Below, piece after piece: positions 6,205-57,859 of a stretch of 64,000 nt of DNA. How positions within the stretch are numbered: the first letter of the stretch is position 1; each line of letters starts with the position of its first letter. The stretch lies in assembly GCF_000016605.1 (NCBI RefSeq), contig NC_009440.1:1439789-1503788 (forward strand), given 5' to 3'. The position numbers and the translations under genes were made by a program. The notes below the pieces were generated by a model. It made no database searches. It was given only the letters and a program-made list of their open reading frames with translations, and had not been told where the DNA came from. The stretch is from Metallosphaera sedula DSM 5348. GTDB taxonomy: Archaea > Thermoproteota > Thermoprotei_A > Sulfolobales > Sulfolobaceae.

Positions 6205-6870
6205 TCACTGCTCCCAGTAGGCCTTCAGTTCTATCTTTTTGGGTTCTCCGTAGTGTAATACATCATCTATTACCTGCTTGAGATATTCCTCTGTTTGAAC
6301 GCCCCTAATGAGCCACTTCTCGTTGATCAGAAGGGCAGGGACTCCCTTAATCCCCATGGCCTTAGCTTCTTCCTCATCCTGTATCACGGCGAGCTTAGCC
6401 TCCTTTGACTTGAAATCCTTCTTGAACCTGTCCATGTCAAGGCCTATCTGCTCAGCTATGGAGAGCAGGACCTCGTCGTCGTTGACATTCTCCCCTTCCA
6501 TAAAGAACTTTTCTTGAGCTAAAGTGAAATATTCCCAGTGACCCTCATCTCCCCGTTGGAATTCAGCCGCCTTGCAGGCCATAAGTGGTGGCATTGACCA
6601 GATGTGGCCTATCTTGCCTTTCTCGATTACCTTCTTAGGATCATAATCGGGGAAGTACCTAGTTAGAATCGAGAACTCGTTCTTGAACAGTTCCCTCGCA
6701 TCCTCAGGAGTTGGTGCCGCAGCCAGAAGATCGTCAAGGGAGGATATTATCATGAACGCCTTATGCTTCACATGCACGTCCTTGTACTCAGAGAGGACTT
6801 TCTTTAACCTCTTGTTGGTGACGTAGCAGAAGGGGCACAACACGTCATGGAAGAACGTTATCTGCATCAA
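6205..6870 (-). CDS. DsbA/FrnE-family thioredoxin-fold oxidoreductase
   Basis: 221 residues. The N-terminus ITFFHDVLCPFCYVTNKRLKKVL has the beta strand and C-P-F-C redox pair (Cys12 and Cys15) of the FrnE-like DsbA family. The large helical insertion and a C-terminal MGIKGVPALLINEKWLIRGVQTEEYLKQVI with the cis-proline VPA are also diagnostic. There is no signal peptide, so it works in the cytosol, probably as a dithiol-disulfide isomerase or reductase. It heads a same-strand group of CBS, OsmC-like and small hypothetical genes that looks oriented toward redox or stress handling. Confidence 0.85.
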   Translation of the reverse strand: MMQITFFHDVLCPFCYVTNKRLKKVLSEYKDVHVKHKAFMIISSLDDLLAAAPTPEDARELFKNEFSILTRYFPDYDPKKVIEKGKIGHIWSMPPLMACKAAEFQRGDEGHWEYFTLAQEKFFMEGENVNDDEVLLSIAEQIGLDMDRFKKDFKSKEAKLAVIQDEEEAKAMGIKGVPALLINEKWLIRGVQTEEYLKQVIDDVLHYGEPKKIELKAYWEQ

Positions 6871-55159: not shown

Positions 55160-55900
55160 ATGGATATATCAAATCTGTTACAGTCGGGTAACCTGAATCT
55201 GGCCCTGTTAAAACTAAGAGAAATGGTAGAACAAAATCCCTCCAAGGAGAACTATCAACTCCTTGGTAGAGTCCTCCTCGAACTAGGAAGAGACGAGGAG
55301 GCAATTGATGCCTTCATTAAGGGAGAAGACTACGTTAGCGCTTCCAGATTGTTAGCGCTCAAGGATCCAGATACAACCCTGGACCTTCTAAGGGATAAGC
55401 AGAGTAAGGAAGCTAAGATAATTCGTGCCATGTTACTTCTCAGGAAGGAAAGATACGACGAGGCTCTTAGGGAGATAGAAAACGTAGAGGACAAGGATGC
55501 CCTTCTCCTAAAGGTGAAGGGAATTTCCGAGTACTTTACCGGAAGATTTTATGAGGCACTAAGGGACCTTAGTAGAGCCATCTCGTATTATCCCTTGGAT
55601 GCGGATCTATTCTATTTCAGAGCCCTCACCAGGATATCGCTAGGGGATGAACAAAACGCTGAGAAGGATCTGGACATTGCCATAAACCTTAATCCCTATT
55701 ACGCTGAGGCCTACTTAAACAAGGGAATCCTCACGGAGAAGAAGGGAGACATTCAAGGGGCCATCAAGCTCTATACCAAGAGCATAGACCTAAAGCCAAA
55801 CTACAAGGAGGCCTACATTAGAAGATCCAAGGCCTATCACCAACTTGGGAGGGAGGAGGAGGCAAAATCCGATCTCGCGAAATCGGAGAAGCTAGACTAG
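55160..55900 (+). CDS. Tetratricopeptide repeat protein
   Basis: 246 residues made of helical repeats. Clear TPR units: NYQLLGRVLLELGRDEEAID (about 31-60), ALRDLSRAISYYPLDADLFY (about 133-160), FRALTRISLGDEQNAEKDLD, AEAYLNKGILTEKKGDIQGA and KEAYIRRSKAYHQLGREEEA in the C-terminal half. The N-terminal half has more degenerate repeats. No enzymatic domain or signal peptide; it probably acts as a cytosolic scaffold. Its last 4 nt overlap the convergent pilin gene. Confidence 0.85.
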   Translation: MDISNLLQSGNLNLALLKLREMVEQNPSKENYQLLGRVLLELGRDEEAIDAFIKGEDYVSASRLLALKDPDTTLDLLRDKQSKEAKIIRAMLLLRKERYDEALREIENVEDKDALLLKVKGISEYFTGRFYEALRDLSRAISYYPLDADLFYFRALTRISLGDEQNAEKDLDIAINLNPYYAEAYLNKGILTEKKGDIQGAIKLYTKSIDLKPNYKEAYIRRSKAYHQLGREEEAKSDLAKSEKLD

Positions 55901-56317
55901 CCCTGAACCTGTGCATAGGTATAAATAACCGGTTCCAGTTGAGAAGATGTGGTTATCGTCACCTTAACTAGTGTCGAGTTAAGGACTGACGTCCCTTGGC
56001 CTTGGAACTCCACGTGTAATGCGGTAGTGGAACCAGCCGGTAACACGAAAGTCGTCGTGTTCACTAGGTTACCCACACTTATACTTTCCACTCTTATTGT
56101 AGTAGTTCCCATGCTCTCAAGGGTCAGATTTAGTACAAGTACTCCGCCGTTTTCAGATAGAGTTGGGACTCCCTTAACATACACATAGCTCTGAGACCCA
56201 TAGGACTTGAACAGTGTAAAGCCAAGAAGGGAAACTGTCAAAGTCAGTGTAACTGCTACCACAACTAAGATTAACACCACTATTGAATCTGAGAGACCGC
56301 GCTTAACTTTTTTTCAT
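55897..56317 (-). CDS. Pilin/archaellin-like protein with class III signal peptide; start out of frame
   Basis: The frame open to 56280 (GTG) encodes a hydrophobic helix (VVLILVVVAVTLTLTVSLLG) and an Ig-like beta domain, as in type IV pilins. The ten codons just upstream read KVKRGLSDSI, an ideal class III signal with cleavage after KRG, but contain no start codon. The ATG at 56317 has the right context (TATA about 26 nt upstream) yet is followed by seven A's that put it out of frame; with six A's it would give MKKVKRGLSDSIVVL and a 139-residue prepilin. The coordinates span that proposed gene. This may be a slippage switch, a decayed gene or a base-calling error. Confidence 0.6.
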
Positions 56318-56339
56318 ACAGAAAAATAGGTAATATTTT

Positions 56340-56459
56340 CTATATAAAATTTTCGATCATTCTTAGGCTTATCTTCATGTTCACGAACTCCGATGAGAAG
56401 TTTACTCTCTCGCGAACTAGATCCTCTAAGGACCTCTTGAGTGGTATGGCCAACTCCAA
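56340..56459 (-). pseudogene. Possible RHH antitoxin-like remnant
   Basis: A 39-codon frame from TTG 56459 to TAG 56340, reading LELAIPLKRSLEDLVRERVN then FSSEFVNMKISLRMIENFI. The pattern 'l.i...lk..le.l...v..S.ef....i..ri.e' resembles the ribbon-helix-helix part of VapB-type antitoxins. It ends inside the promoter of the pilin gene, has no clear full-length partner, and is bounded upstream by an in-frame stop. Low confidence; it may be a chance frame. Confidence 0.25.
56341..56350 (-). promoter_or_regulatory. TATA box of the pilin-like gene
   Basis: On the minus strand ttttatataga is centred about 28 nt upstream of the ATG at 56317, the leaderless spacing used by other genes in this window. 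This supports ATG 56317, not GTG 56280, as the ancestral start. Confidence 0.5.
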
Positions 56460-57252
56460 TTCGTGTACGCCAAGTCACGAGCTCTGAATGAGAAAAGGAA
56501 ATTACCTAGTGATAATTCCTTGTACTTACCAGGACGATGAGGAGTAATAGAGTGGCATTGTGCTTGACCTAAAATAATATCTCCTGGCAACTTGCGATGT
56601 GCCAAGTTAAGGCAAGGAGGGAGGTAAAACATTTACGTCTAGATAAGCATCAGGGCAGGTATAACAACACGGAGATACATTGACCTTCTACAAGTAATGA
56701 TGTTGCACTGAGGAGGGGTAGTGATGATCTCGTTTCCAACATCACCATCACCCCTTGGTCATTTAACGTGGCGCCGTTTAGACATGATAAGAGGCCAAGA
56801 GAGTGAACCTGAATCGTGTTGAACTATCGTCCTCTCACTCTGCCCTTTTTATTAACATCTCTGCATCATGTCTTCCCTTGAAATTATCTGTTGCCGATCT
56901 AAAACACCTTTTTGCTCTTTACTCTATGCTAAGCCCGATATACCAATCAATGTACCGGTCAATCCACTTATCTCCTCCATCATCTCGTTCCATTAATAAA
57001 TTGAGCTAGATATTAACAATAAAATGCTATCACTTTCTGGGGATAGCCCAAACAAACAATCTCTAGGGGTAATACTAATGAAGCGTAATATCCTGGTATA
57101 GCCTCTAGTTAACAGATTGATGAAATATGATGAATAAAAGTATTTTACAGACTAATATATTCTAATAGCAATATAAATCTACTTGATTTCAGATCATAAC
57201 CAGTTGAGGTTAAATATGGAGAACTTGTATTCATCGGCCCTGAACCTACTCC
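56460..57252. other. Gene-poor region of the accessory island
   Basis: Nearly 800 bases with only short, mutually exclusive frames and no protein-like sequence. Base composition drops toward A/T on the right (57100-57180). I see no tRNA, terminal repeats or long inverted repeats. The region separates the pilin from the VapBC pair and is best read as eroded DNA. Confidence 0.35.
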
Positions 57253-57639
57253 CTAGGAAAGAGGTACAAAGTCTACCTTATAGTCTCCTGATACCCTTTC
57301 GGCTACCTCGTGATCTGACGTTACAATAATCCCACCCATCTTGTGGGCTGTGGCCACAAGGAAGGAATCCCCTAAGGACAGGTTGTACCTCACCCTTGCC
57401 TTATATGCTATTTCAGCCAACTCGCGATCCACGTTCACCGGTTTAACAAATGTTAAGAGATAATTTAACCTGACACCCGACGCCTTTATCCCGAATTTCC
57501 TTGAGTAGTGATAAGCGAACTCTGAGAGGTTAACTAGATTTATGACCTTCTCGTCTGAGCTAAGGAAGTACTTCCTGACCGATGGGGAACCTGAAAAGAA
57601 CTGAAAAATGATGTTAGCGTCAAGAATGTACCTTTGCAC
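57253..57639 (-). CDS. vapC: VapC-type PIN-domain toxin
   Basis: 128 residues with the PIN acidic residues Asp7 (YILDANII), Glu40 (NLSEFAYH), Asp90 (LSLGDSFLVATA) and Asp108 (VTSDHE). PIN toxins are Mg2+-dependent RNases that cleave tRNA or rRNA. Its start overlaps the antitoxin's end by 20 nt. All four catalytic positions are present, so the toxin is probably functional. Confidence 0.9.
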   Translation of the reverse strand: MQRYILDANIIFQFFSGSPSVRKYFLSSDEKVINLVNLSEFAYHYSRKFGIKASGVRLNYLLTFVKPVNVDRELAEIAYKARVRYNLSLGDSFLVATAHKMGGIIVTSDHEVAERVSGDYKVDFVPLS

Positions 57640-57859
57640 GTTCCTCTTCCCTTTCCTTAATTTGCTCCTTAGCTAGCTCCTCCAAACCCAGTCCCTTGTC
57701 CATTCCAAAGAGCTCCTCAGGAGTTTTCTTGGGAAGGATATGCACGCCGAATTCGTCACTGTAGATCATAACCTCGTCACCTTCCCTTATGTTGTGGAGT
57801 TCCCTCATTTCCTTGGGAATCACCACTATCCCCTTCTTATGGACTTTCGTGAGTACCAT
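57620..57859 (-). CDS. vapB: VapB antitoxin, AbrB type
   Basis: 79 residues. The N-terminal TKVHKKGIVVIPKEMRELHN and IREGDEVMIYSDEFGVHILP form the swapped-hairpin AbrB DNA-binding fold; the acidic, helical C-terminus (LEELAKEQIKEREEERAKVH) would wrap around the toxin. It precedes vapC with a 20-nt overlap, the standard order. Confidence 0.88.
   Translation of the reverse strand: MVLTKVHKKGIVVIPKEMRELHNIREGDEVMIYSDEFGVHILPKKTPEELFGMDKGLGLEELAKEQIKEREEERAKVHS

Follow-up and report, generated by a model that had tools for sequence, protein, structure and literature searches.

The start codon of a conserved type IV pilin gene is displaced by one A in the reference genome of Metallosphaera sedula

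When the start codon of an otherwise conserved gene is separated from its reading frame by one surplus base in a homopolymer, is the surplus base a regulatory device, a mutation, or an error in the reference? This question is raised by a locus on the minus strand of the window, as we call the whole stretch of 64,000 nucleotides from M. sedula DSM 5348 that was analysed. Here an ATG in a leaderless-type position (56317-56315) is directly followed by exactly seven A's (56314-56308). The ATG frame continues as AAA AAA AGT TAA and encodes MKKS*, four codons closed by the TAA at 56303-56305, and downstream of the tract the sequence reads GTTAAGCGCGGTCTCTCAGATTC. Another frame, one base off, runs from a TGA overlapping the ATG (56316-56314) to a TAG at 55897. 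It contains an open stretch of 138 codons plus TAG (55897-56313), and its translation begins KKVKRGLSDSIVVL. An earlier sequence-only reading had described this arrangement as a class III prepilin gene in which a single A shifts the real start out of frame, and had suggested slippage or a phase-variable switch. Its description of the site (ATG at 56317, seven A's, an early stop) is correct when the sequence is read directly, and the displaced start is borne out both by the pilin frame and by the relatives discussed below. The locus looks less like a switch that evolved to turn the gene on and off than like the outcome of an ordinary, recent mutation or of an error in the reference.

The displaced frame displays the features of a type IV pilin. 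A basic stretch is followed by a long hydrophobic helix (KKVKRG|LSDSIVVLILVVVAV), as in class III prepilin signals. Cleavage is predicted before the L at 56295 (KKVKRG|LSDSIVVL), and the mature protein would then begin with LSDSIVVLILVVVAVTL. The best match among PDB sequences is 8q30, the AAP filament of S. acidocaldarius, with an E-value of 2e-5, or 1.9e-7 when a two-sequence profile is used, and the match starts at residue 1 of that chain, the leucine following KRG. An AlphaFold model made from two sequences (pLDDT 75.6, pTM 0.55) shows a 31-residue helix (H9-39) and then eight strands forming a beta domain, which is the helix-plus-beta layout of a pilin, and the top five matches of the model in a Foldseek search against the PDB were all crenarchaeal type IV pili. 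The AAP pilin and the pili of S. islandicus LAL14/1 (6nav) and S. solfataricus (6w8x) likewise combine a class III signal, an N-terminal helix and a beta domain. The window gene differs from them in that its start codon is out of frame, and the identity is low, 20-26%. Searches of the pilin frame against Pfam and NCBIfam gave no curated match, and when the whole genome was searched for the Pilin_N family the locus was not among the six hits obtained up to E 1. These missing family matches count against an easy classification, but they are outweighed by the structural and sequence matches, and by descent the gene is a crenarchaeal type IV pilin gene, perhaps not a working one. Other pilins are present in the genome, as two tandem Pilin_N-type genes are found at G000:C1:1166176-1166947; the second of these (MVKARKGLSSVMGSLFL...) has an uninterrupted T7 run within its signal helix.

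The position of the ATG relative to the promoter is as expected for a leaderless gene. From the last A of a putative TATA box, TTTATATA (56341-56348, minus strand), to the A of the ATG the distance is 24 nt, while the corresponding spacing in the five orthologues is 23-26 nt (all boxes were picked by eye). The leaderless distance claimed by the earlier reading consequently stands. The combination of a TATA box, 18-26 nt and ATGA7G occurs once in the genome (control 0). ATG followed by exactly A7 is also found once, as is its reversed-pattern control, against 23 cases of ATG followed by exactly six A's. Counting ATG, GTG and TTG, the earliest start codon of the pilin frame is a GTG at 56278-56280, 34 bases past the start of the tract. 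As had been proposed, initiation there would delete the signal peptide; the mature helix would also lose its first residues. Every orthologue begins further upstream, and this GTG was rejected as the true start. Near-cognate start codons between the TGA and the GTG were also considered, but the relatives give them no support. The pilin frame is open upstream of the ATG as well, as a 54-codon ORF (56314-56478, minus strand) that crosses the promoter and is closed by the TGA that overlaps the start codon (ATGA). In Metallosphaera javensis, too, the frame of the pilin stays open before the start. The upstream ORF is probably there by chance.

The displacement of the start is most strongly supported by the relatives, since the orthologues, five in all and one per other genome of the genus, without exception open with an ATG that is in frame. 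A protein search over 31 genomes of the family gave 24 loci in 14 genomes, and when all 24 start regions were read, the window gene proved to be the only one in which no in-frame ATG precedes the class III site. Loss of the gene in related species, which would have undermined the case, is not what is seen: each of the five sister genomes searched has it intact. It also keeps its neighbour. A convergent gene for a TPR-repeat protein, 'TPR' being read from the sequence alone (55160-55900, plus strand in the window), adjoins the pilin gene in six of six genomes, this one included. In the window the stop codons of the two genes overlap at 55897-55900, where CTAG provides TAG on both strands.

The nearest orthologue is that of M. 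javensis AS-7 (AP024487.1). It reads ATG AAC AAA GTT AAG CGT where M. sedula has ATG AAA AAA AGT TAA, so that the seven A's, one above the in-frame count, correspond to AACAAA. Over the region that reaches from the TATA box as far as TATTACC the two sequences are identical, and aligning them ahead of the ATG additionally needs a one-base deletion. The earlier reading had pointed to tract length in relatives as a check; A7 is present in none of the five orthologues, and the A runs that follow their ATGs are not comparable, with four A's at most (genome G007). The TPR gene of M. javensis is, unlike its orthologues, split by a one-base frame break at a AAAAAAGGGG run (L026, about 6574-6584). This break may be an assembly error, AP024487.1 being titled a MAG. 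Given the break, the homopolymers of M. javensis are open to doubt, but the other four orthologues still agree on an in-frame pilin.

On balance we lean towards a recent frameshift allele of a conserved pilin gene, in which one A has been added to a mutation-prone tract and which is largely off, perhaps slightly leaky. Judged from M. javensis, the one close relative on which this two-step path is based, AAC may have changed to AAA in the M. sedula lineage, giving a run of six A's, and replication slippage would then have added the seventh. The leaderless-type mRNA would be translated as MKKS followed by a stop, and little or no prepilin would be made. Slippage on the run, by RNA polymerase or by the ribosome, might still yield a few copies, as might loss of the surplus A in rare cells. 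The pyrE gene of genome G022, which we take to be S. acidocaldarius, has an A7 tract at nt 545-551. That tract is in frame in the wild type and near the 3' end, while the window tract is out of frame at the start. Both are tracts in Sulfolobales genes that yield frameshift mutants (PMC3139894, PMC7785828), and the frameshifts at the A7 at nt 545 are described as left out of the mutation spectra for being 'phenotypically leaky' (PMC3139894). For wild-type pyrE of S. acidocaldarius, 106 of 163 mutations are reported to lie in mononucleotide runs, gains in A-runs accounting for 22 of the 163 (PMC7785828). On this basis replication slippage from six to seven A's is an ordinary event in the order.

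The age of the break can be judged from the rest of the gene. Compared with M. javensis the pilin has a dN/dS of 0.105 at a dS of 1.33, which is near saturation (Nei-Gojobori), and the initial 37 aligned residues are identical. When the 25 differing residues were placed by means of outgroups, the M. sedula and M. javensis branches received 10 changes each, while 5 were unassigned. Neither dN/dS nor the branch counts give any sign of relaxed selection or decay in the pilin frame. A long-standing break should have been followed by decay of the gene, and the undecayed remainder therefore argues for a young break. Full intactness would also fit an error, or a gene in which function was not abolished.

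The main rival to a recent frameshift allele is a reference error, the organism having six A's and a normal gene, and the seventh A stemming from sequencing or assembly. We regard this as unlikely, though a serious candidate. A base error is possible since the tract has been read in one assembly only. Homopolymers are common sites of sequencing errors, and the wholly undecayed pilin frame fits an error well. The 2007 genome project, however, reportedly delivered a finished genome, and homopolymer errors do not look frequent in it. The genome, a single contig of 2,191,517 bases (2.19 Mb), contains 121 exact A7 tracts when both strands are counted. Reading covered 99 of them, 17 being chosen by eye from a frame-score table and examined closely and the remaining 82 by the table alone; 52 of the 99 sit inside ORFs of at least 100 aa. 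Only the pilin required a skipped base among the 17 candidate frame changes or ORF edges, the other 16 being ordinary gene ends, overlaps or uninterrupted ORFs. The pilin is thus the sole break recognised among the 99 tracts, by a heuristic that would miss breaks followed by no recognisable downstream frame. Homopolymer breaks accordingly look rare in this assembly, but the heuristic cannot separate a real mutation from a single error. What adds some weight to the possibility of an error is that the earlier M. sedula reference has been removed from NCBI with its source material unverifiable, and that a new sequence, CP139956, has been reported (PMC10927655). Should the seventh A prove erroneous, the annotation of one pilin has to be corrected.

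A use of the tract for expression is improbable. RNA polymerase would then slip on the A run, at about +4 to +10 of a leaderless transcript, or the ribosome would shift by +1 (or -2), to give a low level of functional full-length product. The pilin frame is indeed reachable by a +1 or -2 shift, or if the transcript had lost one A or gained two, and the conservation of the gene and its core promoter, both undecayed, is in line with such expression. There is also a precedent in the same order. The fucA1 gene for an alpha-L-fucosidase in Saccharolobus solfataricus is likewise interrupted at a run of A's, in which its full-length, in-frame homologues have one A fewer, and about 10% frameshifting in vitro is reported for fucA1 (PMC8211752). 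The leaky A7 alleles of pyrE can be cited as well, but that A7 is near the gene end, which may explain the leak (PMC3139894). However, fucA1 uses a -1 shift, as does, according to the same source, the only programmed ribosomal frameshift described from a cellular gene of an archaeon (PMC8211752), while the pilin needs +1 or -2 and a -1 shift here would yield an unrelated short frame. The fucA1 site is described as internal to the gene and accompanied by tandem rare codons and a putative stem-loop, and fucA1 expression is shown (PMC8211752), whereas the window tract lies at the start codon. In bacteria, selection against slippage-prone A/T runs is reported to be typical at a length of nine (PMC1088944), which further weakens the case for a run of seven. 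RNA folding over the first 100 nt of the mRNA is not unusual compared with shuffled sequences (z 0.07), and no Rfam families were found in 55800-57300. With the run absent from all five orthologues, neither the conserved slippery site nor the stimulating structure of a programmed frameshift was found, and a conserved recoding site was ruled out.

A related suggestion is that the pilin is made only through initial-transcription slippage on the A run, which would lie no further than ten bases into a leaderless transcript, or equivalently that a mixture of A6 and A7 acts as a stochastic on/off switch. This is quite doubtful; if it were true, the amount of an archaeal surface filament would be set by initial-transcription slippage. 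Literature searches gave no tract-length or expression data for this pilin gene and nothing relevant on M. sedula RNA-seq with the pilin, and PMC7325606 gave no match to the pilus or pseudogene terms tried.

An evolved phase-variable switch, with a run that changes length often and reversibly and turns the filament on and off across a population, is very improbable and, like slippage used for expression, unsupported. The idea comes readily to mind for a surface protein with a homopolymer at its start codon, in an order where frameshifts in runs are reported to dominate spontaneous mutation (PMC7785828). But the tract is found in none of the five orthologues and is therefore not a conserved contingency site, and an A7 is unexceptional in a genome with 121 of them. 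The rate also argues against a switch. Gains in A-runs, 22 of 163 at a total of 2.9e-7, amount by a rough estimate to about 4e-8 per division for the A-runs of pyrE other than A7 (PMC7785828), and frameshifts in short A-runs of a related member of the Sulfolobales would roughly occur at 1e-8 to 1e-7 per division. This is far below about 1e-5, the rate near which, according to PMC11868660, changes are detectable without selection (detection reaching down to about 1 in 1e5) and for which the term phase variation is usually reserved, with reversibility shown. The same source treats the 7C tract of the meningococcal capsule gene siaD, a short homopolymer where indels switch off a surface trait, as 'accidental' and not as evolved phase variation (PMC11868660). 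The window case differs from siaD in being an A run in an archaeal pilin gene, known here from its DNA sequence only.

If the frameshift allele is real, this M. sedula genome has no working version of one pilin retained by its sister species, and such a loss matters to studies of attachment and biofilm formation in bioleaching. The A7 tract beside a leaderless start would in addition be a ready-made natural construct with which slippage and the reversion of frameshifts could be measured in Sulfolobales. Two overlapping small ORFs on the minus strand at 57253-57859 of the window resemble, as judged by reading their sequences, a VapB/VapC toxin-antitoxin pair.
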